Shown here: piece after piece, positions 2,407 through 23,617 of the stretch
How positions within the stretch are numbered: position 1 is the first letter of the stretch
How the letters are laid out: each line of letters starts with the position of its first letter
NCBI GenBank assembly: GCA_016789955.1
Contig: JAEUPB010000018.1
Location: 124,001 to 188,000, forward strand
Length of the DNA stretch: 64,000 nt
Source of the DNA: Rubrivivax sp.
GTDB taxonomy: Bacteria > Pseudomonadota > Gammaproteobacteria > Burkholderiales > Burkholderiaceae_C
Reading direction: 5' to 3'
Notes under the pieces: generated by a model
What the model saw: the letters and a program-made list of their open reading frames with translations, nothing else
What the model was told of the DNA's origin: nothing
Databases searched by the model: none
Program-made: the position numbers and the translations under genes

Positions 2407-3120
2407 ATGACTGCGACACTTCTGAAAGTCACGGGCCTCAAGGTCGCCTACGGCGGCATCCAGGCCGTCAAGGGCGCGAGCTTCGAGGTGCAGCAGGGCG
2501 AGCTGGTCTCGCTGATCGGCGCCAACGGGGCGGGCAAGACCACGACGCTGAAGGCCGTCACCGGCACGTTGCCGTTCGCCGACGGCCGCATCGAGTTCAT
2601 GGGCCGCGACATCCGCGGCCAGGGTGCGTGGGACCTCGTGCGCCAGGGCCTGGTGATGGTGCCCGAGGGCCGGGGCACGTTCACGCGCATGACCATCGTC
2701 GAGAACCTGCAGATGGGCGCCTTCGTGCGCGACGACGGCGAGGTCGACGCCGACATCGACAAGGTCTTCGCCATCTTCCCGCGCCTCAAGGAGCGCGCGA
2801 AGCAGCTCGCCGGCACGATGAGCGGCGGCGAGCAGCAGATGCTGGCGATGGGCCGCGCGCTGATGGCGCGGCCGAAGGTGCTGCTGCTCGACGAGCCGTC
2901 GATGGGCCTGTCGCCGATCATGGTCGACAAGATCTTCGAGGTGGTGGCCGACATCCACAAGCGCGGCACGACGGTGCTGCTGGTGGAGCAGAACGCCTCG
3001 CGCGCGCTCAGCCTGGCCAACCGCGGCTACGTGATGGACTCCGGCGAGATCACGATGAACGGCCCAGCGCAGGAGCTGCTGAACGATCCCAAGGTGCGCG
3101 CGGCCTATCTCGGAGAGTAG
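2407..3120 (+). CDS. livF: Branched-chain amino acid ABC transporter ATP-binding protein LivF
   Basis: This 237-residue cytoplasmic ATPase is the partner of LivG. It shows Walker A GANGAGKTT, the LivF-typical VPEGRGTFTRMTIVENL block, the ABC signature [15 protein letters not shown], Walker B LLLDEPSMGLSP and the H-loop VEQNASRALSLA. I chose the ATG at 2407 because the protein then begins (MTATLLKVTGLKVAYGG) as other LivF proteins do; the frame is open further upstream, but only through the repeat element. It is the last gene of the first liv operon. The gene downstream starts 79 bp later behind its own promoter-like site. Confidence 0.95.
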   Translation: MTATLLKVTGLKVAYGGIQAVKGASFEVQQGELVSLIGANGAGKTTTLKAVTGTLPFADGRIEFMGRDIRGQGAWDLVRQGLVMVPEGRGTFTRMTIVENLQMGAFVRDDGEVDADIDKVFAIFPRLKERAKQLAGTMSGGEQQMLAMGRALMARPKVLLLDEPSMGLSPIMVDKIFEVVADIHKRGTTVLLVEQNASRALSLANRGYVMDSGEITMNGPAQELLNDPKVRAAYLGE

Positions 3121-3143: not shown

Positions 3144-3178
3144 CGGTAACGCCTCGGTAACATGCCTGAGCCTAGCCT
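3144..3178 (+). promoter_or_regulatory. Tandem heptamer operator and -10 element of the first SARP-like regulator gene
   Basis: The heptamer CGGTAAC occurs at 3144-3150 and again at 3155-3161, an exact direct repeat with a 4-bp spacer and 11-bp period. Eleven bases further on is a -10-like TAGCCT (3173-3178). The regulator ATG follows at 3200. SARP proteins of actinomycetes bind heptamer direct repeats spaced one helical turn, just upstream of a -10 box; that is established. That the neighbouring SARP-like protein binds here is inference, and would mean autoregulation. Confidence 0.7.
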
Positions 3179-3199
3179 GCCGGCGCTGGAGGCTCGACG

Positions 3200-6100
3200 A
3201 TGGGGATGGATGCAGGCACTGCCGCTTCGGATGCGGCCGTCGTCCCGCACGGGCGACCGGTCCCGCTGCGGCTCGTGCTGCTGCAGCGGCCCCGGCTCCT
3301 GCGAGGCGACTCCGCAGAGCTCGCGCTCAACGACAAGGATGCCGCGCTGCTGGCGCTGGTGGTGCTGGATGCACCGCTGGCCCGCACCCGGGCAGCTTCG
3401 CTGCTGTGGCCCGCCGATGGCGGCCATGGCGCCGGCGATGCACGCGCGCTGAACAACCTTCGCCAGCGCCTCTTCCGCATCGGACGGTGGGCGGGCCGTG
3501 AGGTGGTGGTCACCGGCCCGCGCCTGCTGCTGGCCGATGGCATCGGGCACGATCTCGCGCCGGACGACGACACGCTGCTCGCCGACCAGGCCCAGGGGGA
3601 GCTGCTGGGTGCCCATCTCTACGACCCGGCCAGCGAGCTCGGGCTCTGGGTACAGGCCGCCCGGCAGCGATGGCGCGCGATGCGCGACGACCATCGGATC
3701 GGCCTCGCTGCCCGGCTCGAGTCCCAGGGCCGGCTCGGGGAGGCGTTGCGGTTGGCCTCCCTGCTCGTGGCCGAAGCGCCCTTGTCGGAACACGCCTGCC
3801 GGTTGCTGATGCGGCTCCACCACGTCCGCGGCGACCGCGGCGCCGCCCTCGCCGAGTTCGAGCGCTGTCGCCAGACCCTCTACGAGCAGCTCGGCGACGC
3901 GCCGTCGCAGGAGACCGTGGAGCTGGCGCAGACGGTGGCGCGCAGCGAAGCGCCAGCGCCGGCGAAGCGGCTCGCGCTGCCCTTGGCGTTGCGGCATCCG
4001 CCGCGCACGGTGGGTCGCGATGCCGCGCTGCTGCGCGCCGAGCATCGCTGGTCTCAGCTGGGTGTCGTGCTGCTGCTCGGGGCAGCCGGCATCGGCAAGT
4101 CGCGACTCGCGGCGGAGCTGCAGCAGCGCCACGGCATCACCGTGGGCGTGCTCTGCCGGCCGGAGAGCGCCGCATCGAGTTTCGGCCTGGTCGGCCTGCT
4201 GGCCACCGCGCTCGCCCCGGCCGTGCGGCCGCGGCTGGGCCTGGAGGAACAGGTGTGGCTCGACTGGCTCGCCGACCCGCTGCACCGCGGCGCGCCGCTG
4301 CCCGCCGTGCCGCCCGGCCAGGTGGCACGGATGTACGCGAAGCTGCTGGCGCACGCGGCGGACGCCGGCGTGGCAGCGGTGGCGGTGGAAGACCTCCACC
4401 ACGCGGACGACGCGAGCCTGCAGGTGCTGTGCGCGAGCCTGCCGGGACCCGTCGACCGGCCCACCGCGCGGTCACTGCGCTGGCTGCTCTCGTGCCGCGA
4501 CAACGAACTGCCGGCACCCGTGCAGGCGTGGATCGACCGTCGGCCGCTGGGGGCCGACCCGGTGGTGATGCTCGGGCCGCTGGACGTGACCGCGACCGAC
4601 GCCTTCCTGGCCACGCTCGGCCTGGCCGAAGGCCGCCCGGGTGCGGCCGCCGCGCTGCACACCCATTGCGGCGGGCACCCGCTGTACATGCTGCAGGTGC
4701 TGCGCCAGCTGCAGCTCGCGGGCGAACTCGACGAAGGCCGCTGGCCCGACCGGCTGCCGCTGCCCGACGACGCGATGGTGAGCGCGTCGCAGCGGCTGGC
4801 GCGCGCGGACGCCACCGCGCAGCAGATGGCCTATCTCGCGGCGCTGTGCGGCCCGGACTTCACGGCCGACCTGATGTGCCGCCTGATGCGGCAAAGCGCC
4901 GTGGCGCTGCTGTCGCCCTGGCGCCGCCTTGAAGACCTGCACATCTTCGGGCCCGCGGGCTTCGCGCACGACCTCGTGCGCGAAGCCGTGCTGGCCGTGG
5001 TGCCGCGCGCGCTCGCGCCATTGCTGCACCGCGAGATCGCGCAGGTGCTGGGCGATGTCGGCGCCGATCCGGTGCGGTGCGCGCTGCACTGGGAGGCCGC
5101 CGGCGAGCCGGCCCGGGCGGCCCGCGACTTCGAGGCCGCGGCCGACATCGCCGAGCGCTGCGGGCTGCAGCAGCAGGCGCTGGGCTGGCTCGCCCGGGCC
5201 CAGGCGCAGCATCGCCTCGCCGGCGCCATGCCTGCCGCCTTCGATTGCGACTGGCGCCGCGGCCACCTGATGATTTCCGCCGCGCCCATCGACCGGGCGC
5301 TCGAGCTCGCGCGGCAATTGCCGGGTCGCGCACGGACCGTCGCGCAGCAGGTGCTGGCCGCCGAGCTGATGGCGCGCGTGCGCATCGAGCAGCAGGACGG
5401 CGCGGCGCTCGCCGATGCCGAGGAGGCGCTGGCGTTGGCCCAGTCGCTCGAGGCCGGACCGCAGCGGGCCGGGCTCGTCGCGCGCAGTCGGCTCGTGCGC
5501 GGGTGCGCGCTGGCGCTGCACGGGCGGCACGACGAAGCGCTGGCCGAGTTCGATCGCATCGGCGTCGAAGCATTGCCGCCCGATGGCGACTTCGCGTTCG
5601 ACCTGGCGTGCGACCGCGCGTCGGTGCTGGCCACGCTCGGCCGTCGCCGGGAGGCTGTCGTCGTGCAGCAACGGGTGCTCGAACGGGCACTGGCCGATCG
5701 CCACCCGGCCCGGGCCTCGTTCGCCGCTGGCTTCTGCGCCACCCACCTGGGCTACCTGTGCCGCGTGGGCCGCGCACTCGAGCTGGCCGAACAGAGCCTC
5801 GCGCTGGCGCGGCAGGCGGGTACCGAGCAGGGCCAGGTGCTGGTGGACGAGATGGGTCGTGCCGGCAATCTCGGCGACCTTGGCCGCTACGACGAGGCAC
5901 TGGAACTCGGCGAGCAGGTGCTGTCGGCGCTGCAGTCCGGCGGCCACGCCGTGTGGGCGGCCAATGCGGCCAACGATCGCGCGGTCATCTTCATGCGGCT
6001 GGGCCGTCCCGACCTGGCGCAGCAGCTGCTGGGCCCGCTGCCCGACGATCTGCCGCCGTGGGTGCGCGCGTCGCGCAGGCTGGTGCAGGCGCGGTCGCGG

Positions 6101-6631
6101 CAATGGCAGGGGCACGACGCGCGGGCGCTGGTCCTCGAGGCCGCCGCGATGTTCGCCGAGGTCGGCTCCGCGCTGCACGACTACCCGCGGCGCAAGATCG
6201 AGCTCGAGGCGGCGCGTGCACGCGGCGTCGAGTCGGCGACAGCGGCCGCGCGGGACAGCGTGGCCTGGGCCCGTGCGCACGAGCACGTGGCCTTCGAGCG
6301 GTACGCGCTCACCGTGCTGATCGCGTCGCTGGCCGAGTCCGGGCGGGCTGCCGAGGCCGCCGACGAGGCCCGCGCCCTGGCCGGACAGGACGGCGTGTGC
6401 AGCGAGGCATTCGGGTTCTACCTGCCGCAGCTGCTGCTGGTCTGCGCGGAGGCGCTGCGGGGAGCGGGCGACGCGGCCGCCGCGGAGCCGATGCTGGATG
6501 CCGCGCTGGCCTGGCTCGAGGATCGCCGCACGCGACACGTGCCGCCGCTGTTCCGCGACAGCTTCCTCGCCCGCAACCCGGTGAACCAGCGACTGACCGC
6601 ACTGCGGCGGACCGCGGTAACGCCCCGGTAA
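3200..6631 (+). CDS. SARP-like transcriptional regulator: winged helix + BTAD + AAA/STAND ATPase + TPR-like tail
   Basis: This is a 1143-residue cytoplasmic regulator. Residues ~22-110 form an OmpR-type winged helix as in SARPs, with probable recognition helix ARALNNLRQRLFRI (82-95). Residues ~125-250 match a bacterial transcriptional activation domain (BTAD). A P-loop ATPase follows, with Walker A GAAGIGKS (294-301) and a Walker B-like VAVEDLHHADD (~394-404). The C-terminal ~550 residues are Ala/Leu-rich helical pairs resembling TPRs. The start is supported by GGAGG 7 bp upstream. A tandem CGGTAAC operator lies before it, and a second one overlaps its stop codon, ahead of the Calx-beta gene. 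Family knowledge suggests ligand- or protein-controlled, ATP-dependent activation. The signal is unknown. A 1117-residue paralogue is at 20211-23564. Confidence 0.85.
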   Translation: MGMDAGTAASDAAVVPHGRPVPLRLVLLQRPRLLRGDSAELALNDKDAALLALVVLDAPLARTRAASLLWPADGGHGAGDARALNNLRQRLFRIGRWAGREVVVTGPRLLLADGIGHDLAPDDDTLLADQAQGELLGAHLYDPASELGLWVQAARQRWRAMRDDHRIGLAARLESQGRLGEALRLASLLVAEAPLSEHACRLLMRLHHVRGDRGAALAEFERCRQTLYEQLGDAPSQETVELAQTVARSEAPAPAKRLALPLALRHPPRTVGRDAALLRAEHRWSQLGVVLLLGAAGIGKSRLAAELQQRHGITVGVLCRPESAASSFGLVGLLATALAPAVRPRLGLEEQVWLDWLADPLHRGAPLPAVPPGQVARMYAKLLAHAADAGVAAVAVEDLHHADDASLQVLCASLPGPVDRPTARSLRWLLSCRDNELPAPVQAWIDRRPLGADPVVMLGPLDVTATDAFLATLGLAEGRPGAAAALHTHCGGHPLYMLQVLRQLQLAGELDEGRWPDRLPLPDDAMVSASQRLARADATAQQMAYLAALCGPDFTADLMCRLMRQSAVALLSPWRRLEDLHIFGPAGFAHDLVREAVLAVVPRALAPLLHREIAQVLGDVGADPVRCALHWEAAGEPARAARDFEAAADIAERCGLQQQALGWLARAQAQHRLAGAMPAAFDCDWRRGHLMISAAPIDRALELARQLPGRARTVAQQVLAAELMARVRIEQQDGAALADAEEALALAQSLEAGPQRAGLVARSRLVRGCALALHGRHDEALAEFDRIGVEALPPDGDFAFDLACDRASVLATLGRRREAVVVQQRVLERALADRHPARASFAAGFCATHLGYLCRVGRALELAEQSLALARQAGTEQGQVLVDEMGRAGNLGDLGRYDEALELGEQVLSALQSGGHAVWAANAANDRAVIFMRLGRPDLAQQLLGPLPDDLPPWVRASRRLVQARSRQWQGHDARALVLEAAAMFAEVGSALHDYPRRKIELEAARARGVESATAAARDSVAWARAHEHVAFERYALTVLIASLAESGRAAEAADEARALAGQDGVCSEAFGFYLPQLLLVCAEALRGAGDAAAAEPMLDAALAWLEDRRTRHVPPLFRDSFLARNPVNQRLTALRRTAVTPR

Positions 6632-6649
6632 CAGCACGCGCCCTACGCT
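6615..6649 (+). promoter_or_regulatory. Tandem heptamer operator and -10 element of the first Calx-beta gene
   Basis: CGGTAAC lies at 6615-6621 and 6626-6632 with spacer GCCC, and TACGCT follows 11 bases later at 6644-6649. Heptamers, period and distance to the -10 are the same as upstream of the regulator gene. The TAA stop of the regulator (6629-6631) sits inside the second heptamer. The Calx-beta ATG is at 6678 with CGGAG six bases before it. Confidence 0.7.
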
Positions 6650-6677
6650 GCCCGGCATCCGCCCACCGGAGTCGAGC

Positions 6678-9600
6678 ATGCCGTACCTGTCCACCCGCCC
6701 CGTGGCCGCCAGCGAGAACGCGGGCGTCGTCGAGTTCATCGTCCGCCTGGACGCGCCGGCCACCACCGAGGTGCGCGTCTCGGTGCAGACCGACAACGGC
6801 ACCGCCGTCGCCAACCAGGACTACACCTTCCTGCGCGACACGCTGGTCTTCGCCCCTGGCGAGACCAGCAAGACGGTGCGCGTGAGCCTGATCGACAACG
6901 CTCCGGCGGAGGGCACCGAGCACTTCTGGCTGCAGCTCTACAGCCCGGTGGGGGCGAGCATCGAGCAGCCATTCGTGCCGGCCACGATCATCGACAACGA
7001 CGCCGCTGCCGGCACGCCGGCGCTCTCGGTGGGCGACACGGCCATCGACGAGGCGGCCGGCACCGTCACCTTCTTCGTGCGCCTGTCGCGGCCTTCGTCC
7101 ACCGGCGTGACGGTGAGCTACGCCACCGCCGACGACAACGCCCGCGAGGGTGCGGACTACAGCGCCACCAGCGGTCTGCTCAGCTTCAACCCGGGCGAGG
7201 TGGTGAAGACGGTGACGGTGCCCCTCGCCAACGACGGCGACTCCGAGCGCGACGAGACCTTCTTCCTGCGGCTGTCCGGCCCCTCGGGCGCGACGCTCGC
7301 CGATGGCGAGGCGGTGGCGATGATCGGCCGCAACGATGCCGGTGCCACGTCGACGCCGCAGGTCTTCGTATCGTCCGTGGTGCTCGACGAGACGGCGACG
7401 ATGGCCGAGGTCGCGGTGCAGCTCTCGGCGCCGTCGAGCAACGAGGTGCGCGTCAGCGCGCAGACCGAGAACGCCACCGCCACCGCCAACAGCGACTTCC
7501 AGTTCGCCCGCGACACGCTGACCTTCGCGCCGGGGCAGACGCTGAAGACGTTCCACGTGCCGATCCTGCAGGACACCACGGCCGAGCCGACCGAGCTGTT
7601 CTGGCTGCAGCTCTACAGCCCGGTCAATGCGACGCTGCCGCGGCCCTACACGCTGATGACGCTGGTGGACAACGACGCCTCGGCCGGGACGCCGGCGATG
7701 ACGATCGGCGACGCGGTGGTCGACGAGTCGGCGCAGACGGTGACGGTGCCGGTGCGTCTGTCGCGGCCGTCGGCAGGCACGGTGGTCGTCGACTACGCCA
7801 CGGCCGCCGAGACCGCCTCGGCCGGCGACGACTACGTCGCCGCAGCCGGCCGGCTGTCGTTCGCCCCGGGCGAGACCGCCAAGACGATCACGCTCAAGCT
7901 GGTCGACGACGGCATCGCGGAAGTGGACGAGCGCTACTCGGTCGCGCTCTCGGGCGTGACCGGGGCGACGTTGGCCGATGCCGTCGGCACGGTCACGATC
8001 GCGCGCAACGACGACGCGGCCGTGAGCACGCCGTACGTCTACACCACGCCCGCGGTGGTGGGCGAGGGCGAGGCCGTGGCGACGATGGTCGTGCGCCTGT
8101 CGGCGCCGTCGCTCAACGAGGTGCGCGTCAGCTACCAGAGCGAGAACAACACCGCCACCGCGAACAACGATTTCCAGTTCACGCGCGACACGCTGACCTT
8201 CGCCCCGGGCGAGACGGCCAAGGTGATCTCCATCGTGATGCTCGACGGCACGGTGGCCGAGCCGACCGCGGACTTCTCGGTGCAGCTCTACAGCCCCGTC
8301 AATGCGACGCTGTCGCGGCCGTACACGTCCGTCACCGTGTACGACAACGACGGCACCACCGGCACGCCGGCGATCTCGGTGGGCGACCTGATCGTCGATG
8401 AAGGCGCGATGACGGCGCAGTTCGTCGTGTCGCTGTCGCGGCCGGCGGTGGGCGCCGTGACGGTGGGCTACGCCACGGCCGACGACAACGCCCGCGCCGG
8501 CGCCGACTACCGCGCCGCGGCCGGCACGCTGTCGTTCGCGCCGGGCGAGGTGGTCAAGACGGTGACGGTCGACCTCTTCGACGACGGCGCTGCCGAGGGC
8601 GACGAGTCCTTCAAGCTGGTGCTGTCGAGCCCCACCGCAGCGACGCTGGCGGCCGACACCGGCACCGCGCTGATCGGCCGCAACGACGGTGCGCCGGAGA
8701 GCCGCCCGTACCTGTCGGTCACGCCGCTGGCGGTGACCGAGGCCGGCCTCGCGATGTTCGCGGCGCAGTTGTCGGCGCCATCGACGAACGAGGTGCGCTT
8801 TTCATACCAGACCGACAACGTCACGGCGGCCGCGAACTCGGACTACTCGTTCGCCCGCCAGCAGCTGATCTTCGCCCCCGGCGAGACCACCAAGTTCATC
8901 GAGATCCCGACGCTGGACGACACCGTCGCCGAGCCGGCGCAGTCGTTCTACCTCCAGGTGTACGGTCTCGTGAACGCGACGGCGCCGGTGTCCTACATCC
9001 CGGCGCTGATCGTCGACAACGACGGCACCACCGGCACGCCGGCGATCTCGGTGAACGACGTGGTCGTCAACGAGAACGACCAGGTGGCACGCTTCTTCGT
9101 CACGCTGGACCGCGCCTCGACGCAGACGGTGGCGGTGCGCTGGGGCACCGCCGACGACACCGCCGCGGCCGGCGGCGACTACGAAGCCGCGTCGGGCGTG
9201 CTCTCGTTCGCACCGGGCGAGATGGTGAAGACGGTGGCGGTGAAGCTCACCGACGATGCGCTCACCGAATTCCTCGAGAGCTTCCAGGTGAAGCTCTCGG
9301 CGCCCAGCGCCGCAACAATCGCCGATGCGACCGGCGCCGCCTTCATCGGCCGCAGCGACGGGCCGCCGGTGGCGCGGCCGCAGGTGTCGGCCACGCCGCT
9401 GACGGTGGCCGAGGGCGACACCTTCGCCACCTGGCTCGTGCAGCTGTCCGCGCCGTCGGGCAACGAGGTGCAGGTCAGCTGGCAGACCGAGAACGCCACG
9501 GGCGTCGCGAACTCGGACTACCTGTTCGACCGCCAGACGGTGGTGTTCGCCCCCGGCGAGACAGTGCGCGTGCTGCGCCTGCCGCTGCTGGAAGACACCG

Positions 9601-10481
9601 CCGCCGAGAGCACCGAGTCGGTGACACTGCGCCTGTACAGCCCGGTCAACGCCACGGTGTCCCAGGCCACGTACACCGTGTCGATCATCGACAACGACAG
9701 CGGCTTCGCGGTGGGCAGCCGCGGCCTGTCGAACGACCGCTACGACATCTCGTCGGTGCTCGCGCGCATCGCCGAGAGCCCCGGCGGCGGCACCGACACG
9801 GTGGTCGCGAGCGTCAGCTACACGCTGCCCGAGAACGTCGAGAACCTGGTGCTCACCGGCGGTGCGGCCAACGGCATCGGCAACGCGGGCAACAACACCT
9901 TCGTCGGCAACGCCGGCAACAACACCTTCGACGGCCAGACCGGCATCGACACGGCCGTCTTCGGCGGCCCGCGTGCCGCCTACACCGTGACCGGCAGCGC
10001 CGCGTCACGCACCGTCAGCGGCGGCGCCGACGGCACCGACACGCTGCTGTCGATCGAGCGGCTGCGCTACTCCGACCAGGTGCTGGCCAGCGACACGCAG
10101 CCGGGCCAGAACACCTACCTCGCCTACGCGATGTTCAATGCCGGCTTCGACCGTGGCCCCACCCCCACCGAACTGGCGCTGTGGACCAGCCAGCTCGACC
10201 GCCTGGGCAACACGCGCGACCTGGCGCAGGCGATGATCAACTTCTACGCGCCGGGCGTGCCCGACGAGGCCCTGGTGGCCCACCTGTGGGGCACGATCGT
10301 CGAGGCGCCGATCCCGCTGGACGCGCTGCAGCTCTACGTCGGCCTCGTCGGCAACGGCACCTACACGCAAGCGTCGCTGCTCGAGCTGGTGGCGACGCTG
10401 GACCTGAACACGGTGGAGTTCGCCGGCATCGCCGGCAGCACCTTGACGATGGATGCGTCGTTCTTCCCGGTGCCGGGGTGA
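6678..10481 (+). CDS. Large Calx-beta repeat protein with RTX-like and DUF4214-like C-terminus (first copy)
   Basis: The 1267-residue protein is built of nine Calx-beta domains of about 112 residues, ending near residues 107, 219, 332, 445, 557, 670, 781, 894 and 1007. Two types alternate: one ends in xxDND followed by a GTPA-type linker, the other in IGRND. Each has the typical NxDY/GADY, LxFAPGET and DDxxxE motifs that bind calcium in the family. Residues ~1050-1100 hold short RTX-like glycine repeats (GNAGNN). The last ~150 residues contain NTYLAYAMFNAGF and resemble DUF4214. There is no N-terminal signal peptide, so export by a type I system through the C-terminus is likely but unproven, and no such system is in the window. 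It is probably a surface or secreted adhesin. The second copy is at 16309-20187. Confidence 0.85.
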   Translation: MPYLSTRPVAASENAGVVEFIVRLDAPATTEVRVSVQTDNGTAVANQDYTFLRDTLVFAPGETSKTVRVSLIDNAPAEGTEHFWLQLYSPVGASIEQPFVPATIIDNDAAAGTPALSVGDTAIDEAAGTVTFFVRLSRPSSTGVTVSYATADDNAREGADYSATSGLLSFNPGEVVKTVTVPLANDGDSERDETFFLRLSGPSGATLADGEAVAMIGRNDAGATSTPQVFVSSVVLDETATMAEVAVQLSAPSSNEVRVSAQTENATATANSDFQFARDTLTFAPGQTLKTFHVPILQDTTAEPTELFWLQLYSPVNATLPRPYTLMTLVDNDASAGTPAMTIGDAVVDESAQTVTVPVRLSRPSAGTVVVDYATAAETASAGDDYVAAAGRLSFAPGETAKTITLKLVDDGIAEVDERYSVALSGVTGATLADAVGTVTIARNDDAAVSTPYVYTTPAVVGEGEAVATMVVRLSAPSLNEVRVSYQSENNTATANNDFQFTRDTLTFAPGETAKVISIVMLDGTVAEPTADFSVQLYSPVNATLSRPYTSVTVYDNDGTTGTPAISVGDLIVDEGAMTAQFVVSLSRPAVGAVTVGYATADDNARAGADYRAAAGTLSFAPGEVVKTVTVDLFDDGAAEGDESFKLVLSSPTAATLAADTGTALIGRNDGAPESRPYLSVTPLAVTEAGLAMFAAQLSAPSTNEVRFSYQTDNVTAAANSDYSFARQQLIFAPGETTKFIEIPTLDDTVAEPAQSFYLQVYGLVNATAPVSYIPALIVDNDGTTGTPAISVNDVVVNENDQVARFFVTLDRASTQTVAVRWGTADDTAAAGGDYEAASGVLSFAPGEMVKTVAVKLTDDALTEFLESFQVKLSAPSAATIADATGAAFIGRSDGPPVARPQVSATPLTVAEGDTFATWLVQLSAPSGNEVQVSWQTENATGVANSDYLFDRQTVVFAPGETVRVLRLPLLEDTAAESTESVTLRLYSPVNATVSQATYTVSIIDNDSGFAVGSRGLSNDRYDISSVLARIAESPGGGTDTVVASVSYTLPENVENLVLTGGAANGIGNAGNNTFVGNAGNNTFDGQTGIDTAVFGGPRAAYTVTGSAASRTVSGGADGTDTLLSIERLRYSDQVLASDTQPGQNTYLAYAMFNAGFDRGPTPTELALWTSQLDRLGNTRDLAQAMINFYAPGVPDEALVAHLWGTIVEAPIPLDALQLYVGLVGNGTYTQASLLELVATLDLNTVEFAGIAGSTLTMDASFFPVPG

Positions 10482-10602
10482 ACGAACCACCGCGGCGACG
10501 CCACGCAGGTCAGGGGTTTCGAGGCAAACCCGGGCGGTGGCCTCGATGCGCAGGCGCTATGCTGGCCGTGGCCATCAGAGAGAGGCTCAGAGGAGGATGT
10601 CG

Positions 10603-11850
10603 ATGAAGAACGGATGGATCGGCACCATGCTGGTGCTGGCGGGCGGCGTGGCCGCCGCGGCCGACGAGGCGCAACCCAGCGTCGAGAAGTGCAGCCAGGA
10701 ACTCGGCACGCTGGCGGTGGCCGAGCAGCCGGACACGATCAACCGCCTGCGCGGCTATGGCCTCGGCTCGCCGACGATGATGCTGCGCATGATCGTGCAG
10801 GAGTCCGGATGCTTCGCGGTCGTCGAGCGCGGAGCGGGCATGCAGGCCATGCAGCAGGAACGCGCGATGGCGGCCACCGGGCAGCTCACCGCGGACGCCA
10901 ATATCGGTGGTGGGCAGATGCAGGCGGCCGACTTCGTGCTGACCGCATCGGTGCAGTTCTCCGAGGAGACCGGAGGCGTCGGCGGCGCGGTGAGTGGCCT
11001 GCTCGGGCGGGCCAGCGGCCTGCTCGGGCGGCTCGGCGGCCTGGCCGGTGGCGTCAAGTTCAAGGAGGCACAGACCACGATCCTCGTGTCCGACGTCCGC
11101 TCGGGCATCCAGGTGGCCAGCGGCGAAGGCCAGGCGAGCAAGATGAACTTCACGCTCGGCGGCTGGGGCTGGGGTGGCCTGGGCTGGGCGACGGCGGGCG
11201 GCTACAGCAAGTCCCCCGAGGGCAAGCTGATCGCCGCGAGCCTGCTCGACAACTACAACAAGGTCGTGCTGCAGGTGCGCGACAAGCCGATGCTCGTGCG
11301 CGCGCGGTCGGATGCCAGCATCCGCAACGCCGCGGCGTCGACGCAGGCCACGCCGCAGACGCAGACGGTGTCGGCAGTGGCCCCCAGCGGCCACGTGGTG
11401 CCGGTCGCGCCGACCGGTGCGCAGGTGGCGGTGGCGCAGCCGCGCGTCATCGTGGCCCAACCGCAGATCGTGTCGCCGCAAGTGGTGGCCGTGGCCCCGC
11501 AGGTGGTGGCGCCGCAGATCATCGTCACGCAGTCCGACCGCGTGCTGCCGACGGCAATGGTCGGTTCCTTCTCCGGCAAGATCAACGGCGACCATCAGGG
11601 GGTGATCTCGCTGATCGTCTCGGTGAACGGGCGCGTGTCGGGCATCGTGCAGTCTGCTGCGGCCGGAGGCAGCGCGCCGGTCAACGGCGTGGCCGATGCC
11701 GCCGGCAACTTCGTGCTGATCTCCAGCGGCAATGCCGGTGCACCGACGGCGCAGTTCAGCGGCCGCATCGATCCTTCCGGCGTGATGATCGGCACCTGGC
11801 TCGTGCAGGGCCAGAACATGCAGGGCACCTTCAACGCCCGGCGCGATTGA
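10603..11850 (+). CDS. CsgG-family envelope protein with Val/Pro/Gln-rich linker and C-terminal beta domain
   Basis: The 415-residue protein has a Sec signal peptide (residues 1-21, cleavage after GGVAAAA) without a clear lipobox cysteine. Residues ~25-230 match the CsgG family (curli-secretion channel relatives): note SGCFAVVERG and the following QQERAMA. Two near-identical SGLLGR units occur around residue 135. Residues ~265-320 are a low-complexity linker rich in VAPQVV repeats. The last ~100 residues look like a small beta-barrel domain. AGGAGG at 10591-10596 points to the ATG at 10603 rather than 10597. It sits 121 bp behind the first Calx-beta gene in the same direction, so it could serve surface display; that link is inference. 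Confidence 0.75.
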   Translation: MKNGWIGTMLVLAGGVAAAADEAQPSVEKCSQELGTLAVAEQPDTINRLRGYGLGSPTMMLRMIVQESGCFAVVERGAGMQAMQQERAMAATGQLTADANIGGGQMQAADFVLTASVQFSEETGGVGGAVSGLLGRASGLLGRLGGLAGGVKFKEAQTTILVSDVRSGIQVASGEGQASKMNFTLGGWGWGGLGWATAGGYSKSPEGKLIAASLLDNYNKVVLQVRDKPMLVRARSDASIRNAAASTQATPQTQTVSAVAPSGHVVPVAPTGAQVAVAQPRVIVAQPQIVSPQVVAVAPQVVAPQIIVTQSDRVLPTAMVGSFSGKINGDHQGVISLIVSVNGRVSGIVQSAAAGGSAPVNGVADAAGNFVLISSGNAGAPTAQFSGRIDPSGVMIGTWLVQGQNMQGTFNARRD

Positions 11851-11872
11851 GCGCCCACCGAGGGCGCCCCGC

Positions 11873-12811
11873 TCAGCGCAGCGCCGTCGGCGGCACGCCC
11901 AGCAGCCGCACGAAGCTGCGCCGCAGGCGCTCGGCGCGGCCGAAGCCGTAGCGCATCGCGGCCTGCTGCACCGAGACACCGCCGCTCTGCAGCGCGGCGC
12001 GAGCCGCCTCCACGCGCAGCCGCTCCACCGCACGCGCCGGCGTGGCGCCGGTCTCGGCGTGGAAGGCGCGCGCGAAGTGGCGCGGGCTCATGCAGGCCCG
12101 CTCGGCCAGGCTCTCCACGCTGTGCCGCTCGGCCAGCCGTGAGCGCACCTCCTCCAGCAGCGGCGCGAATCGGCCCTGCGGCCTTTCGAGCTGCAGCAGC
12201 GCCGAGAACTGCGACTGACCGCCGCGCCGCCGCGTGTAGACGACGAGCTGCTGCGCGGCCAGGCGTGCCACCTCCTCGCCGACATCGTGGGCGACGATGG
12301 CCAGCGCCATGTCGATGCCGGCGGTGATGCCGGCCGAGGTCCAGCGGTTGCGGTCGTGCACGTAGATGCGGTCGGGCTCGAGCTGCACCTGCGGGTGGCG
12401 CCTCTGGAACTGCCGCGTGCGCGACCAGTGCGTGGTGGCGCGGCAGCCGTCGAGCACACCGGCCGCCGCGAGCACGAGGCTGCCGCTGCAGACGCTGGCG
12501 ATGCGCGGCGCACCGGCGCCCGGGCGGGCCATGCGCTGCAGCCAGCGCACGAGGCGGGCATCGGCCGCCGCTGCGTCGGAGCCGTCGCCGCCGGTGAGCA
12601 TCAGGGTGTCGAAGCGGCCGCGTGCCGGCAGCGTACCGGCCTCCCAGGCCACGCCGGCCGAACTGCGTACCGGGCCGGCCTCGCTGGCGGCGAAGCGCCA
12701 GGCGTAGCTGCCGGGCCGCAGGCGCTCGGCGACTTCGAACACGGCCAGCGGCCCGGCCACGTCGAGTTGCTGGAAGTCGGGGTAGAGCACGAAGGCGATG
12801 CGGTGGGTCAT
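11873..12811 (-). CDS. GlxA-type transcriptional regulator: DJ-1/PfpI-like domain + AraC HTH
   Basis: The 312-residue regulator starts MTHRIAFVLYPDFQQLD. Residues ~5-180 form a DJ-1/PfpI (GATase1-like) ligand domain with the nucleophile-elbow sequence ASVCSGSLVLAAAG. Residues ~215-310 hold the two AraC-type helix-turn-helix motifs (SVESLAERACMSPRHFARAF and the YGF-containing second one). An ATG four codons upstream (12823) is equally possible; neither has a good ribosome site. It is divergent from a second DJ-1/PfpI gene across 109 bp, which suggests that it controls that gene. The effector is unknown. Confidence 0.88.
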   Translation of the reverse strand: MTHRIAFVLYPDFQQLDVAGPLAVFEVAERLRPGSYAWRFAASEAGPVRSSAGVAWEAGTLPARGRFDTLMLTGGDGSDAAAADARLVRWLQRMARPGAGAPRIASVCSGSLVLAAAGVLDGCRATTHWSRTRQFQRRHPQVQLEPDRIYVHDRNRWTSAGITAGIDMALAIVAHDVGEEVARLAAQQLVVYTRRRGGQSQFSALLQLERPQGRFAPLLEEVRSRLAERHSVESLAERACMSPRHFARAFHAETGATPARAVERLRVEAARAALQSGGVSVQQAAMRYGFGRAERLRRSFVRLLGVPPTALR

Positions 12812-12920
12812 GGCCGTGAGCATGGCAGAAAAAGGAGGAACTACGTCATTGCTGCCATCGCCTGGGCGCGCGATGCTGGAGGCCTTCCGCGCTTGCGCGC
12901 CATGGCCTGGAGCCTGTTTC

Positions 12921-13619
12921 ATGACCACGATCGCCCCCGCCCCGTTCCGCGTCGTCTTCGCGCTGTTCCCGCGCATCACGCAGCTCGACTTCACCGGCCC
13001 GCACGAGGTGCTGTGGCGGCTGCCGGGCGCCGAATGCGTGCTGGCGTCGGTCGGGGGCGGGCCGATCACCGCCGATGGCGGGATCGTGTTCCAGACGCAG
13101 CGCCTGGCCGACATCGCCGCCTGCGAGCTGCTGCTGGTGCCAGGCGGCTACGGCGTCGTGGCAACGATGTCGGATGCCGCGTTCCTCGCCGAGCTGCGGC
13201 GGCTGGCAGCCGGCGCGCGGCACGTGGTGTCGGTGTGCACCGGCTCGCTGCTGCTGGCCTCGGCCGGGCTGCTGAAGGGTCGTCGCGCCGCCTGCCACTG
13301 GGCCTGGCGCGACCTGCTCGCGTCGTTCGACGGTGTCACGCCCGACGAGCGCCGCATCGTGCGCGACGGCAACGTGCACACCGGCGGCGGCGTGACCGCC
13401 GGCATCGACGTGGCGCTGGCGGTGATGGCCGAGGTGGCCGGCGTGCCGTACGCGCAGGCGGTGCAGCTGGGCATCGAGTACGCGCCCGAGCCGCCGTTCG
13501 ATTGCGGCCGCCCCGAGCGCGCCGATGCCGACGTGCTGGCGCGCGTGCGGCAACGGCTGGAGTCGATGGGGAGCGAGCGGCGCACCGCGGTGCAGCGCGC
13601 CGCCGCGGCGCTGGCCTGA
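12921..13619 (+). CDS. DJ-1/PfpI family protein, isonitrile hydratase-like
   Basis: The 232-residue cytoplasmic protein is a single DJ-1/PfpI domain. It has DFTGPHEVLWRLPGAE near the N-terminus, LLLVPGGYG, and the nucleophile cysteine in VSVCTGSLLLASAG. The overall pattern matches InhA-type isonitrile hydratases and their uncharacterised relatives. The ATG at 12921 has TGGAG eight bases upstream and gives the usual family N-terminus. It is divergent from an AraC/DJ-1 regulator that shares the same fold. The substrate is not proven; a thiol-based hydratase or amidase-like role is the family guess. Confidence 0.85.
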   Translation: MTTIAPAPFRVVFALFPRITQLDFTGPHEVLWRLPGAECVLASVGGGPITADGGIVFQTQRLADIAACELLLVPGGYGVVATMSDAAFLAELRRLAAGARHVVSVCTGSLLLASAGLLKGRRAACHWAWRDLLASFDGVTPDERRIVRDGNVHTGGGVTAGIDVALAVMAEVAGVPYAQAVQLGIEYAPEPPFDCGRPERADADVLARVRQRLESMGSERRTAVQRAAAALA

Positions 13620-13631
13620 GCGCCCCGGCCT

Positions 13632-14849
13632 TCAGGCCCGACCGAGCAGCGACTCGCGCAGCATCGCCAGCGCCAGCTCGACCTCCTCCTCGCTGATCGT
13701 CAGCGCCGGCACCAAGCGCAGCCGCTCGGGCCGCGCGGCATTGACGATGAGGCCGTCGCGCACCCCGTCGGCGCGCGCGAACAGCGCGGCGGCGGCGCGC
13801 TCAGCCTGCGCCGGCTGCGGCAGCTGCAGCGCGAGCAGCAGCCCGCGGCCGACCGCCGGCGGCGAGCCGAGCTCGGCGGCGATGTCGTCGAGCCCGCGCC
13901 TCAGCTGCCGGCTGCGCTCGCGCACCTGTGCGAGGAAGCCGGGCTGCGCCACGGTGCCCAGCACCGCCAGCGCCGCGGCACAGGCGAGCGGGTTGCCGTG
14001 GTACGTGCCGCCCTGGTCGCCGGGGGCGAAGCAGCTCACCGACTCGCGCGCCACCATCGCGCCGATCGGCACGCCGCCGCCGAGGCACTTGCCGAGCGTC
14101 AGGATGTCGGGCCGCGCGCCGCTGTGCTCCCAGCCCCACAGCGTGCCGGTGCGGCCCACGCCGGTCTGCACCTCGTCGTAGATCAGCAGCAGGCCCTCGT
14201 CGTCGCACAGTCGACGCAGTGCCTGCAGGAAGCCGGGCTCGGCCTCGATCACGCCGGCCTCGCCTTGGATCGGCTCGAGCATCACGGCCACGGTGCGCGG
14301 GCCGATCAGCGCGCGCACGCTCGCCAGGTCGTTCAGTCGCGCCTTCGGAAAGCCCGGCACCTTGGGCTCGAACAGCGCCGCGAACGACGGCTTGCCGCTG
14401 GCGCTCATCGCCGCCAGCGTGCGGCCGTGGAACGCGTGCTCGAAGGTGATGATCTCGTGCGCGCCGCCGCGGTGCAGCTGCCCATACTTGCGAGCGAGCT
14501 TGATCGCGCCTTCGTTGGCCTCGGCGCCACTGGCGGTGAAGTAGGCGCGTTCCAGGCCCGAGAGGGCGGTGAGCCGCTGCGCCAGCGCCAGCGCGCGGTC
14601 GTTGTACAGGCCCGGGCCGGGCTGCAGCAACCGCGTGGCCTGCTCGGCCAGCGTGTCGGCCAGCAGCCGTGGCGCGTGGCCCAGCGTGTTGACCGCCCAC
14701 CCCTGCACGAGGTCGAGCCAGCGGCGGCCCAGCGAATCCCACAGCCAGCTGCCGCGGCCGTGCGTGAACACGGCATCGGGCCGCTGCGTGACGTGCATCA
14801 GCGCGGTGGTGGAAGGTTGCCCGAGGGCGGGTGCATCGGCGAGGTTCAT
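13632..14849 (-). CDS. argD: Acetylornithine transaminase family protein (class III aminotransferase)
   Basis: The 405-residue PLP enzyme probably converts N-acetylglutamate semialdehyde and glutamate to N-acetylornithine in arginine synthesis. Visible signs are the GAEANEGAIKLARKYG cofactor region, FHGRTLAAMSASG, the DEVQTGVGRTG aspartate motif and the PLP lysine in LTLGKCLGGGVPIGAM. Length is normal. The 3' end lies 12 bp from the convergent DJ-1 gene. No other arginine gene is nearby, so a related class III transaminase role remains possible, but the sequence is closest in style to ArgD. Confidence 0.87.
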   Translation of the reverse strand: MNLADAPALGQPSTTALMHVTQRPDAVFTHGRGSWLWDSLGRRWLDLVQGWAVNTLGHAPRLLADTLAEQATRLLQPGPGLYNDRALALAQRLTALSGLERAYFTASGAEANEGAIKLARKYGQLHRGGAHEIITFEHAFHGRTLAAMSASGKPSFAALFEPKVPGFPKARLNDLASVRALIGPRTVAVMLEPIQGEAGVIEAEPGFLQALRRLCDDEGLLLIYDEVQTGVGRTGTLWGWEHSGARPDILTLGKCLGGGVPIGAMVARESVSCFAPGDQGGTYHGNPLACAAALAVLGTVAQPGFLAQVRERSRQLRRGLDDIAAELGSPPAVGRGLLLALQLPQPAQAERAAAALFARADGVRDGLIVNAARPERLRLVPALTISEEEVELALAMLRESLLGRA

Positions 14850-15160
14850 GGGTCGGTCCGTTCAGGGGGTGGAGGATCGGCCCGTGGAACTCTCGCGGTC
14901 TGCAGTGCTGCCGAGGCTGCTGCGGAGTGCCGGGCGAGCGGCGCCGCGAGGGCCAGAAAGCACGAAGGCCACGAGGAGTCTCGTGGCCTTCTGGGCGTGA
15001 ACGCTCGATGCGGGTCTAGCGTTCGCGGCGGCACGACACCTCGCGACAGGTACGTCGCAAGGCTCGTCGGGAGGCCGTGGCGGCAGGAAGCGCAGCGGGG
15101 TTCACGTCGCGGAGCATACCTGCAACCCCGCCGGGTGCCGAGGCTGATGTGGCGCGCCCG
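14850..15160. other. Non-coding stretch between argD and the TctC-type gene
   Basis: These 311 bases have no convincing gene. They hold the 5' leader of argD, a perfect 12-bp hairpin (14964-14991), and a 7-bp inverted repeat GAACGCT/AGCGTTC at 14999-15024. No further structure was recognised. Confidence 0.6.
14964..14991 (-). terminator. Strong hairpin, likely terminator after the TctC-type gene
   Basis: GAAGGCCACGAG and CTCGTGGCCTTC form a perfect 12-bp stem with a 4-base loop. On the minus strand the stem is followed by GTGCTTTCTGG, a modest T-rich tail. It lies 170 bp past the stop of the TctC-type gene and upstream of argD on the same strand, so it would keep the two transcripts apart. 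Confidence 0.6.
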
Positions 15161-16135
15161 TCACTCGAGCCGCGCACCGCTGGCCTTCACCACGCCCTCG
15201 TACTTCGCGAGCTCGCCCTTGACGAACGCGGCGAACTGCTCGGGCGTGGTGGGCGAGGGCTCGGCCATCAGCGTGGCCATGCGCGCCTTCACCTCGGGGC
15301 TCGCGAGCGCGTCGGTGAACGCCTTGTGCAGCCGCTGCGTCACGTCGGCCGGCAGGCGTGCCGGGCCGAAGAGGCCGAACCAGGTGTTGACGTCGAAGTT
15401 CGCGAGGCCGAGCTTCGCCCCGGCCTCCGCCATCGTCGGCAGCTCCGGCATCGCGCTGGAGCGCCGCGCGGTGGTGACCGCCAGCGCCTTCAGCTTGCCG
15501 CTCCGGATGTTGGCCGCCGCCGCGGCGAGGTTGTCGATGTTGAAGTCGACCTGCCCCGACACCAGCGCGAGCTGCGCCGGCGGCCCGCCGGCATACGGGA
15601 TGTGCACGACGTAGAGGCCTGCCTGCGCCTTGAACATCTCGCCGGCCAGGTGTCCGGCGCTGCCGTTGCCGCCCGAGCCGTAGTTCAGCCGCCCCGGGTT
15701 CCTCTTCGCGTAGGCCACGAGGTCGGCGAGCGAGGCGATCGACAGGCGCGACGCCGTCTCGGCGTTCATCACGACGACGTTGGGCACCTGCGCCACCAGC
15801 GTGATCGGCGTGTAGTCGCGGATCGGGTCGTAGGGCATCGTGCGATAGAGCCACGGGTTGATCGCGTGCGTGGCCACGGCGCCCATCACGATCGTGTGGC
15901 CGTCGGGGGGCGACTTGGCGACGAGGTCGGCCCCGAGGTTGCCGCCGGCTCCGGGCCGGTTCTCGACCACCACGGTGCCCAGGCTGCCCTGCACCCGCTC
16001 GGCGAGTGCGCGGGCGACGATGTCCAGCGGGCCGCCGGGGGGGTAGGGAACGACGAGGCGGATGGGGCGGGGCTGGGCGGCCAGGGGCAGGGCCGCGAAG
16101 GCCAGGGGAGCGAACAGCAGGGGACGGCGTTGCAT
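15161..16135 (-). CDS. Bug/TctC-family tripartite tricarboxylate-type solute-binding protein
   Basis: The 324-residue periplasmic binding protein has a signal peptide (MQRRPLLFAPLAFAALPLAAQ). It shows the Bug-family landmarks VPYPPGGPLDIVARALA, VVVENRPGAGGNLGADLVAKSPPDGHT and GSGGNGSAGHLAGEMFKAQAG. The ATG at 16135 places the signal peptide correctly; the frame is open further upstream. Burkholderiales genomes carry very many such orphan binding proteins, and no TctA/TctB membrane genes are adjacent. Its 5' region is divergent from the second Calx-beta gene, 173 bp away. The ligand is unknown, probably a small carboxylate. Confidence 0.9.
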   Translation of the reverse strand: MQRRPLLFAPLAFAALPLAAQPRPIRLVVPYPPGGPLDIVARALAERVQGSLGTVVVENRPGAGGNLGADLVAKSPPDGHTIVMGAVATHAINPWLYRTMPYDPIRDYTPITLVAQVPNVVVMNAETASRLSIASLADLVAYAKRNPGRLNYGSGGNGSAGHLAGEMFKAQAGLYVVHIPYAGGPPAQLALVSGQVDFNIDNLAAAAANIRSGKLKALAVTTARRSSAMPELPTMAEAGAKLGLANFDVNTWFGLFGPARLPADVTQRLHKAFTDALASPEVKARMATLMAEPSPTTPEQFAAFVKGELAKYEGVVKASGARLE

Positions 16136-16240
16136 GGCGGGTCTTGGGAGTACGCGGTGAGCTTTCGAGACTACCCCGGGCGGTGTTCCGCGGCGGAACT
16201 GCCGGTGCGTCGCTTCGACGGCGAGACACGGGCTCCCGCT

Positions 16241-16274
16241 GGGTAACGGACCGGTAACGCGGGCCTTCGAAGCT
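16241..16274 (+). promoter_or_regulatory. Tandem heptamer operator of the second Calx-beta gene
   Basis: GGGTAAC at 16241-16247 and CGGTAAC at 16252-16258 repeat the operator seen at 3144 and 6615: same 11-bp period, one base different in the first heptamer, spacer GGAC. A weak -10-like GAAGCT follows ten bases later (16269-16274). The Calx-beta ATG is at 16309. Finding the same site 10 kb away, in front of a paralogous gene, argues for a shared regulator. Confidence 0.65.
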
Positions 16275-16308: not shown

Positions 16309-19300
16309 ATGCCCTTCGTCAGCGTCAGCCCGCCCGTGCTCGTCGGCGAGGGGGAGCGGTTCGTGGACATGGTCCTGCGGATGGATGTCGCCTCGGCGGC
16401 TCCCCTGTCGCTGAAATGGGACCTGCGCAATCTCGAGAACACCGTCTCGGCGGACTGGCGCACGACGGGAGGCACGGTCGTCTTTGCGCCTGGAGAGACC
16501 CTGAAGACCGTGCGGCTCGAACTGATCGACGACACCGTCGACGAAGCGCTCGAACTCTTCAGCTTCGAGTACTTCGGTGTCGCCGCGGGCACCACTGCGT
16601 CGGGCGCCCAGACGGTCCAGGTGCTCGACAACGACGGGGCGATCGCGGTGCCCCAACTGTTCGTGCACGACGCCACCATCGACGAGAAGGCCGGGGTGAT
16701 GCGATTCGTCGTGCGCCTCGGCGACATGGGAGGCGGTTCGCTGGCCACACCGGTCACCGTGGCCTACTCGACGGCCGACGACACCGCGACGGATCGGCTC
16801 GACTATGCGAGCGCGTCGGGGACGCTGACTTTCCTGCCCGGCGAGAACGTCAAGACGATCGACGTGACCGTGTTCGACGACACGTCGATCGAGTCGGCCG
16901 AGCGGCTCCTGCTGACGCTCGCGGACCCATCGGGCGCAGCGATCGGCGACGGCATTGCGATCGGCACCATCGGCCCGAGCGACGGCACGCTGGCCACCCA
17001 GCCGCGCTACAGCGTCACGTCGGCGACGGTCGGGGAGGGCGATGGGTATGCCGATCTGGTCGTGACCCTGGCCTCCCCGGCGGCCACGCCGGTCACGATC
17101 GCCGCGTGGACGCCGGCGCGGGGGCTCATCCTCCCGGAAGCGATCGTCGCGGGCGGGCTCGCGCCCGTTGCCGTCGGGGGGCAGCTCGTCTTCTTTCCCG
17201 GCGAGACCACGCGCGTGCTGCGCGTGGGACTGCTCGACGACAGCGAGCCCGAAGCGCGGGAACTGAACGGCGTGCTCCTACAGAACGGGTCGGTCGGCGT
17301 GCAGACGCTGACCGCGACCAGTGTGGTGGTCGTCGACAACGACACGCGCTCCGGCGTCCCGCGGATCTTCGTCGACGACATCGTCGTGGACGAGACCACC
17401 GGCACCGCGCGCTTCGATGTCCGCCTCGGATGGAGCCTGGGGCAGGTCGCGAGCGGACGGGTGCAGGTGGACTTCCGCACCGAGGATCGCAGCGCCGTCG
17501 CGGGACAGGACTACGTGGCGGCGGCGGGACGCCTGAGCTTCGCGCCGGGGACCAGCGTCCAGTCGGTGTACGTCGACCTGCTCAACGACACGCTGGCGGA
17601 GTCGGCCGAGCGATTCGCGCTGGTGCTGTCGAACCCGGTCAACGCGACCCTCGGGCAGGAGTCGGCCGAGGCCGAGATCGGGCTCAGCGACGGCGTGCCG
17701 CTGTCGCAACCCACGATCAGTCTGGACGACGTGATCGCGGGCGAGGGCGACACGATCGGCCAGTCGGTCCTGAGGCTGAACGCGCCGTCGCCGAACCCGA
17801 TCTCGGTGATGTGGGGCGGCGCCGGCATCGCCCGGGAGATCGCGGACTTCGTCGGCCCCAACTCGCGGGAGATCTTCGTCCACTTCGCGCCAGGCCAGAC
17901 GACGCAGGTCGTCCCGCTCGAGTTCGTCGACGACAAGACCGCCGAGCCTCTCGAGATCTTCCCGATCACGCTGGGCACGCCCACCAATGCGCTCATCGGA
18001 CGCGGCGCTGCGTCGGTGACGATCTACGACAACGAGACGTTCGCCGCGCAGCCGCAGCTGTTCATCGAGGACGCCGCGGCGGACGAGAGATCCGGATCGG
18101 TCCAGTTCGCCGTGCACCTGGGCGGCCGCGACGCGCAGGCCTCGTCACAGGTCGTCTCGGTCCGCTATGGCACGACTGACGTGACCGCACAGGCGAATGC
18201 CGACTACCGCGGCCGCGAGGGGCTTCTGGTGTTCCAGCCCGGAGAGACGGTCCAGGTGGTTCGCGTGGACCTGATCGACGACACCCTGCGGGAAGCGTCC
18301 GAGCGATTCCGCATCGAGCTGTACGACCCGGTCAACGCCACGATCGGCTCCGCCCGGGCCCACGCCCTGATCGGTCCCAGTGATCAGGCCCCGGTGGAGC
18401 GTCCGATCCTCTCGGTGGGCGACGCCAGTGCAGGCGAGGCCGACGGCTATGTGGACGTGGTCGTGGGGCTGAGTGCGCCGTCGCCGCTGCCGGTGGGATA
18501 CCAGCTCCTGGTGACCGACGCCCTCAGTGGTCGTCTCGTGACCTCGACCGGAAATGGAGGCACCCTGAGTTTCCCTGCGGGGGAGACGCTGCAGGTGGTG
18601 CGGCTGCGCATCTCGGAGGACCAGGTGGCCGAACCGATGGAGCACTGGCTGGTGACGCCGAGCGGGCTGAGCAACGCCACCGCTCCTGGGCTCGGCGGGC
18701 TCGTCGCCATCCTCGACAACGACAACTTCGCGGAGACCGCGACGCTGAGGGTCCGCGATGTCGTGGTCGATGAATCGTCCGGCCGGGCCCGCTTCGACGT
18801 CGTGCTGGGAGGCGCTCGTGGTGCGGCGAGCGCGGAAATGATCCGGGTCGCCTACGCGACGCGGGACGGCACCGCGCAGGCCGGGCAGGACTACGTGCCC
18901 CAGGACGGCGTGCTGGTGTTCGCTCCGGGCGACACGCTCAAGACCGTGGAGGTCGACTTGATCGACGACGCGTGGCCGGAGCCGGGCGAGCGATTCGAGC
19001 TAGTGCTGTCGGGCGCCGAGCACGCGGCGGTGGCGGACGGGCACGGCGTGGCGCTGCTCGGCCCCAACGACACTGCGCCCCAGGCCCGCGCCACGTTGTC
19101 GGTCGCCAGTGCGGCCGTGTCGGAGTCCGACGGATACGTGGACCTGATGCTGACGCTGAGCAATCCTCTCTCGGTCGCGGTCTCGTTGCCGACCAGTCCG
19201 TTGATCGGCGGGACGGCATCCGCGGGCGACCTGACCCTGCTGGATCCGGCGACGCTGTTTCCCCAGGGCGCCACGACGGCGTCGCTGCGGGTGCGGCTGG

Positions 19301-23564: not shown

Positions 23565-23617
23565 TGCGATCCTCCCCAGTCGCCCCGCGGCGCCCTCGCC
23601 CGGATGCGGCGCCGCGT

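Follow-up and report, generated by a model that had tools for sequence, protein, structure and literature searches.

Streptomyces antibiotic regulatory proteins (SARPs) have mostly been described as switches of antibiotic gene clusters in actinomycetes; published accounts drawn upon here include PMC10972967, PMC5930380, PMC10936776, PMC7232297 and PMC3684757. AfsR, the large SARP of Streptomyces coelicolor, binds as a side-by-side dimer to two 11-bp repeats centred at -29.5 that overlap a poor -35 element; it docks sigma region 4, and binding of ATP relieves the inhibition exerted by its NOD and TPR parts (PMC10936776). The rule given for SARPs in general is that the 3' repeat lies 8 bp from the -10 element (PMC10936776). 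PimR, a SARP-LAL regulator, recognizes CGGCAAG heptamers with 4-bp spacers; binding requires two of these heptamers, and activation requires a triplet (PMC5930380). Here we describe three tandem heptamer pairs in a 64,000-nt stretch of DNA from Rubrivivax sp. (the window), which stand before the gene of a SARP-type regulator (regulator 1) and before two genes encoding Calx-beta repeat proteins. The best explanation, and in our judgement a strongly probable one, is that these pairs are operators of SARP-type transcription activators.

Scanning the window with the pattern SGGTAACNNNNSGGTAAC gave three perfect matches, all on the + strand: CGGTAAC-GCCT-CGGTAAC at 3144-3161 (predicted operator 1), before the regulator gene; CGGTAAC-GCCC-CGGTAAC at 6615-6632 (predicted operator 2), before Calx-beta gene 1 and in overlap with the stop codon that ends the regulator gene; and GGGTAAC-GGAC-CGGTAAC at 16241-16258 (predicted operator 3), before Calx-beta gene 2. 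The gaps between these sites and the respective start codons (3200, 6678 and 16309) are 38, 45 and 50 bp. When two mismatches were permitted a single further match appeared (2557-2574, minus strand), located within an upstream ABC-transporter gene, and 100 dinucleotide shuffles of the window produced a mean of 0.27 matches and a maximum of 2. A sequence-only reading of this DNA had proposed exactly this arrangement, with heptamers set 4 bp apart before the regulator gene and both Calx-beta genes and with no other tandem pair in the window, and on these points it was borne out. It had also placed a -10-like hexamer 10-11 bases downstream of every site, which holds for the first two promoters, where the predicted -10 elements TAGCCT (3173-3178, + strand) and TACGCT (6644-6649, + strand) lie 11 bp past the operator, and does not hold well for the third, where the hexamer found 10 bp past the operator (GAAGCT, 16269-16274, + strand) is weak and, unlike those of the other promoters, has no TA. 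With the hexamer placed at -12 to -7, the two TAAC elements of a pair would start near -38 and -27.

Set beside the afs box, these sites are alike in consisting of 11-bp direct repeats that start with CG (CGTT(T/C)ATCGNN in the afs box, CGGTAACGNNN here), in overlapping the -35 region and in lying at about the same position relative to the -10. They differ in their TAAC core bases, in their betaproteobacterial host and in their predicted targets, which are surface and secreted proteins and regulators and not afsS. The heptamer of PimR is two letters from CGGTAAC and has the same 4-bp spacing, and the operators described for the SARP-LAL proteins SanG and PolR are likewise pairs overlapping the -35. 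PimR is unlike the present case in the triplet that it needs for activation, in an operator that does not overlap the -35, in having antifungal gene clusters as targets, and in its actinomycete host.

The regulator 1 gene (3200-6631, + strand) encodes 1143 residues, in which Pfam places a BTAD domain at residues 145-246 (E = 4.2e-11), directly behind a winged helix-turn-helix (wHTH), and an AAA_16 domain at residues 282-412 (E = 5.2e-11, above the cut-off), together with a TPR_12 match that falls under the cut-off. The same scan found no receiver domain, and no match of Trans_reg_C (PF00486) to the wHTH. The protein also has a Walker A-type stretch, GAAGIGKS. An AlphaFold2 model of residues 1-273 (mean pLDDT 91.7) shows a winged helix followed by the BTAD helices, and when it was compared with the PDB by Foldseek only 6 matches were obtained at E<=0.001, all of them AfsR transcription complexes (8hvr, 8k60) or EmbR, with TM-scores of about 0.6 (E = 7.3e-8 for AfsR 8hvr_I). 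A sequence profile of the regulator also retrieves AfsR and EmbR, among synthetic TPR proteins. In the full-length model, built from six sequences (mean pLDDT 76.6), the C-terminal helical repeats from about 600 to 1139 are good and the ATPase part is poor. By these domain matches and models regulator 1 has the predicted architecture of a large SARP or SARP-LAL protein, with a wHTH, a BTAD next to it, an ATPase and C-terminal TPRs; AfsR has its SARP domain, NTPase and TPR in the same order, and PimR, SanG and PolR share the combination of a SARP domain with a LAL-type ATPase half.

Further relatives resemble this protein in part. EmbR from Mycobacterium tuberculosis matches the modelled wHTH-BTAD portion and carries an FHA domain in place of the ATPase-TPR region. 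HilA from Salmonella is a proteobacterial wHTH activator of the OmpR/ToxR family; it contains a BTAD-like portion, has a direct repeat of 11 bp close to the -35, and is not known to carry an ATPase-TPR region. Response regulators of the OmpR/PhoB type share the wHTH and, as described for PhoP, a preference for 7-bp repeats with 4-bp spacers, and are unlike regulator 1 in having their own receiver domain and a wHTH of the kind matched by PF00486.

In the source genome (G000; 5.26 Mb and 79.6% complete, so that further sites may be missing) GGTAAC-N5-GGTAAC occurs without mismatch at four places, as against none for the reversed control. The fourth site (contig C27, position 14230) is separated by about 90 bp from the downstream start of a further BTAD regulator gene, whose product is 35% identical to regulator 1; the heptamers of this site are nearly those of the window sites and a TA hexamer, TACACC, follows 11 bp downstream. 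Rather than many random hits away from promoters, which the sequence-only reading had named as evidence that would speak against it, all four perfect sites thus precede either BTAD genes (two) or Calx-beta genes (two). Among the 13 BTAD matches of this genome only those of regulator 1 and the C27 regulator have a TAAC pair upstream, and none was found upstream of regulator 2, a second BTAD-AAA_16-TPR protein of the window (20211-23600, minus strand; open frame to 25400, start near 23600 estimated) whose gene is convergent with Calx-beta gene 2. Calx-beta matches fall on three contigs, C28 with both window genes and C87 and C45 without such a site. As a separate observation, the gene behind the C27 regulator (L060:12817-14904) encodes a calpain-type peptidase domain (E = 3.5e-15), a eukaryote-like domain beside a SARP-type gene. 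Yet another BTAD gene of the source genome (L019, contig C74) has CTGCAAC-N4-CTGCAAC upstream of its domain match, possibly an operator with a different core.

To follow the motif through the genus we relied on the core common to the flanks of the regulator homologues, namely TAAC-N7-TAAC followed after 10 or 11 bp by a TA hexamer. Searched for in 81 genomes as TAACNNNNNNNTAACN{9,10}CTA, this core together with its -10 was found at 75 places in 39 genomes, as opposed to 19 for the reversed pattern. The distance to the TA is 11 bp at 58 of these sites (N11) and 10 bp at the remaining 17 (N10). At the N11 sites the TAAC is followed by G in 48/58 and 49/58 cases for the two halves, and the final letter of the -10 hexamer is T or C in 51/58. 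A third upstream repeat is no general feature of the TAAC sites. It is seen in imperfect, in-phase form at L050 (genome G007, on the same contig as L199), where GGGTAGC-N4-GGGTAAC-N4-GGGTAAC recalls triple SARP operators and precedes a Calx-beta gene resembling window gene 2.

Of the regions fetched around the 75 sites (at most about 4.5 kb per side, shorter at contig ends), 38 contained a tblastn match to regulator 1, comprising 32/58 N11 and 6/17 N10 sites. Genomes with more regulator matches, counted among at most 9 scored candidates each, also have more N11 sites (Spearman rho 0.51, p = 1e-6), and no such rise was seen for per-genome counts of N10 sites or of the reversed control. The linkage also appears from the protein side: among the matches listed, 79 loci were fetched through the regulator protein only (some lie on the same contigs as the genus genomes), and 26 of them carry sites, with 32 sites and 0 reversed matches in 1.19 Mb. 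Named carriers of the exact pattern include Rubrivivax, Rhizobacter, Ideonella and Leptothrix records, and it is absent from every Roseateles, Paucibacter and Rhodoferax locus among the 79. A TAAC pair with a TA hexamer stands before, behind or divergent from the gene in 38 of 116 distinct regulators, a share biased upward because the 116 include loci fetched for holding a site; TCAC pairs were found near 4 and TGAC pairs near 3 (reversed controls 0). On a tree of the regulators (110 rows) the TAAC label clusters, requiring 17 changes against 30.9 when shuffled, a difference to which near-copies contribute. The shuffles, the reversed-pattern controls and the linkage to regulator genes together rule out a chance origin of the pairs. 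We also asked for identical 6-mers at any distance in the flanks, and for the 30 regulators with exact sites 11 bp scored 36 upstream and 31 downstream (next-best 14 and 22), a signal that is clear because these regulators were selected for the site; 11-bp periodicity obtained without prior knowledge of the core is suggestive only.

Beyond the genus, matches were obtained in 113 of the 399 genomes scanned in the order. A universal Burkholderiales motif is ruled out, as reversed matches are by inspection at least as common in these genomes. G430, which belongs to another family, is conspicuous for its 9 sites and 0 reversed: three of them precede same-strand regulator matches, at distances of 65, 120 and 179 bp; a further four are 1 to 7.6 kb distant from a fourth regulator match, which is located on contig C4; and the other two are not close to any regulator match. 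The C4 group (218401-230760) has its four TAAC sites in a stretch of about 12 kb that surrounds a single BTAD gene, and might be a multi-gene SARP regulon.

For the genes behind the sites we applied a longest-frame rule, dropping 2 of the 75 as too short, and scanned the remaining 73 (window included) with Pfam; the resulting family counts are approximate because the rule is simple and some choices look like wrong frames. Among the best 25 of 51 families the most frequent were BTAD regulators (9), PEP-CTERM (7), Calx-beta (5) and DegP-like proteases (5), followed by two-partner secretion outer-membrane proteins (4), Ig-like domains (4), and M16 peptidases, RCC1, ZU5 and histidine-kinase ATPases (3 each). 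Many of the products are envelope, surface or secreted proteins. Outside the source genome, G034, G007, G025 and G104 each have a Calx-beta gene behind a site, and in G025 and G104 this gene lies directly behind the regulator gene, as in the window. The regulator of G104 is the closest to regulator 1 (57% identity), and both have CGGTAAC pairs before the Calx-beta gene. In G007 the site separates a BTAD gene from the divergently oriented Calx-beta gene, whose product has by eye an N-terminus like that of gene 2.

In the mechanism that we propose, two wHTH-BTAD protomers would sit next to each other just upstream of the -10, one helical turn apart, with each of them on its own TAAC half-site. 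There they would make up for the absent -35 and engage sigma region 4, as AfsR does, and the AAA/TPR part would gate activation through a signal. Judging from the precedents of AfsR and PimR, and from the difference of only two letters between CGGTAAC and CGGCAAG, regulator 1, once its sensor part is triggered, would most likely activate its own gene in a feed-forward manner and, besides, both Calx-beta genes of the window, the adjoining one at 6678 as well as that at 16309. Such self-activation would make the switch abrupt. The C27 paralogue, with an operator of the same kind, may share targets.

The assignment to SARPs is based on the modelled fold of regulator 1, the 11-bp period, the placement of the -10 and the absence of a -35, and further on the genus-wide linkage of TAAC pairs to SARP genes and on the sites before Calx-beta genes in four other genomes. 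A -35 with at least four of six matches at 15-19 bp was found at 0/58 N11 promoters as against 10.5% of random TA positions in the same regions, an absence that is partly built in because fixed motif letters occupy that stretch. This built-in bias is one of several points that weigh against our interpretation. The sequence-only reading had recognized SARP architecture from the geometry, and geometry alone is no proof since OmpR/PhoB-type regulators also bind heptamer repeats with an 11-bp period. Site 3 has a poor -10. From CGGTAAC to the -10 the gap is 11 bp and not the 8 bp quoted for SARPs, which is obtained only if the heptamer is taken as TAACNNN. With one mismatch permitted the source genome still has 4 matches, none added, and the reversed control has 4 as well. 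The exact GGTAAC pair had 7 matches versus 8 reversed when 36 further genomes of the genus were scanned, so that this form alone is not enriched, and the conservation upstream of orthologues envisaged at the outset applies to the TAAC core and not to the exact heptamer. A regulator match is missing from the fetched region for 26/58 N11 sites, and 78/116 regulators have no nearby TAAC pair. Among the 86 other regulators the distance of 11 bp scores 29 and 31, compared with 32 and 39 for the best distances. Finally, inspection of the 399 genomes of the order revealed no general excess over the reversed pattern.

Of the alternatives, the one that survives best overlaps with our own and is not exclusive of it. 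Here too the sites are SARP operators, each of them read mainly by a different paralogue, with cross-talk; Calx-beta gene 2 might for example be controlled by regulator 2, and the C27 gene by its own product. We regard this as possible, though by some way not the likelier version. That many sites adjoin a regulator gene is in its favour, as are the nearly identical heptamers of the C27 site and the divergent gene pair of G007 with its intervening site; regulator 2, on the other hand, belongs to a supported set of five in the regulator tree, none of which has a TAAC pair, and the CGGTAAC pairs that both regulator 1 and its G104 relative have before a Calx-beta gene also speak against it. The regulon of one regulator and three targets that had been suggested from the sequence is borne out in part only: sites stand before all three genes, and the fourth site makes it at least one gene larger. 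Control by a single regulator is not established because the specificities of the paralogues are likely to overlap.

An OmpR/PhoB-type response regulator could instead read the TAAC pairs, with BTAD genes being merely frequent targets. The 7-bp repeats and 4-bp spacers bound by mycobacterial PhoP, and the overlap of the afs box with a PhoP site, give this idea a precedent, and it could accommodate the N10 sites with a CTAACC core that precede DegP-like and M16 genes without a BTAD match in the fetched region, some of them from genomes (G015, G075 and G021) where no match to the regulator reached E<=1e-10. In the two genomes tested, however, Trans_reg_C lay within 5 kb of a site in 0/22 cases (G000) and 0/16 cases (G430). 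The shortest distance, on C27, was about 7 kb. BTAD genes, by contrast, are found within 5 kb of sites in both genomes. The number of N11 sites, unlike that of N10 sites, also tracks the number of regulators, and we consider this explanation unlikely. Least likely of all is that the sites serve repression and not activation, given that promoters without a usable -35 would have little basal activity to repress and that AfsR activates from about the same position, even though autorepression is common among regulators and an overlap with the -35 region would block polymerase too. SARP-type activation thus remains our preferred explanation.

Both the protein family and the operator geometry were known before; what seems new is their use in Burkholderiales in connection with surface proteins, for among the matches listed in our literature searches we found no account of SARP/BTAD wiring in Rubrivivax-type bacteria. 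The parts best known from actinomycete antibiotic clusters here occur in Gram-negative Burkholderiales, and their predicted targets are largely surface and secreted proteins. Although speculative, and on balance rather doubtful in its full extent, it can be imagined that the Burkholderiales around Rubrivivax possess an expanded family of STAND-type SARP activators, in which a TAAC core common to all, together with flanking or variant letters peculiar to each member (TAAC, TCAC, TGAC), wires every regulator to an adjacent gene whose product is a large protein of the surface or a secreted one (Calx-beta, Ig-like, PEP-CTERM, RCC1). In that case parts known from the control of actinomycete antibiotics would form modular, self-reinforcing switches of cell-surface proteins. 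If our main interpretation is true, the sigma-adaptation mechanism of AfsR would extend past the actinobacteria. Many uncharacterised BTAD-ATPase regulators would then have a readable operator, which would make their targets predictable from sequence, and the family would provide natural variants from which to learn how the SARP wHTH reads DNA.

The remaining window genes can be described briefly. Calx-beta repeat proteins 1 (6678-10481, + strand, 1267 residues) and 2 (16309-20187, + strand, 1292 residues) have by eye a similar C-terminal region of more than 100 residues and no obvious N-terminal signal, which suggests a C-terminal export signal. Calx-beta gene 1 is followed by a gene for a CsgG-domain protein with a signal-peptide-like start (10603-11850, + strand; CsgG E = 1.4e-8 on a longer frame from 10453), for which 10603 is the presumed start and which is possibly co-transcribed with it.

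Two further classes of sites deserve mention. Pairs with a CTAACC core, mostly 10 bp from the TA (11 bp in L135), precede DegP-like genes (L114, L115, L117, L119 and L123) and genes for M16 peptidase-like proteins or proteins with a similar N-terminus (L116, L118, L121 and L135), with no BTAD match in the fetched region. This subset looks like a separate envelope-stress regulon, perhaps under an OmpR-type response regulator; together with the failure of the N10 sites (n = 17) to track regulator number, it rules out that all TAAC pairs belong to SARPs. The variant heptamer TCACG had 39 matches as opposed to 10 reversed in the 81 genomes (hand count), a class that is only suggestive because several of its members are one conserved site without a shown BTAD link. 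That near-identical site, close to TCACGAGATTATCACG and followed by CACTA, recurs in several genomes (for example G065:C29:184542, G006:C4:82437, G031:C24:28584, G007:C17:61920, G020:C82:12360 and G099:C438:1739) and is apparently a single conserved promoter.

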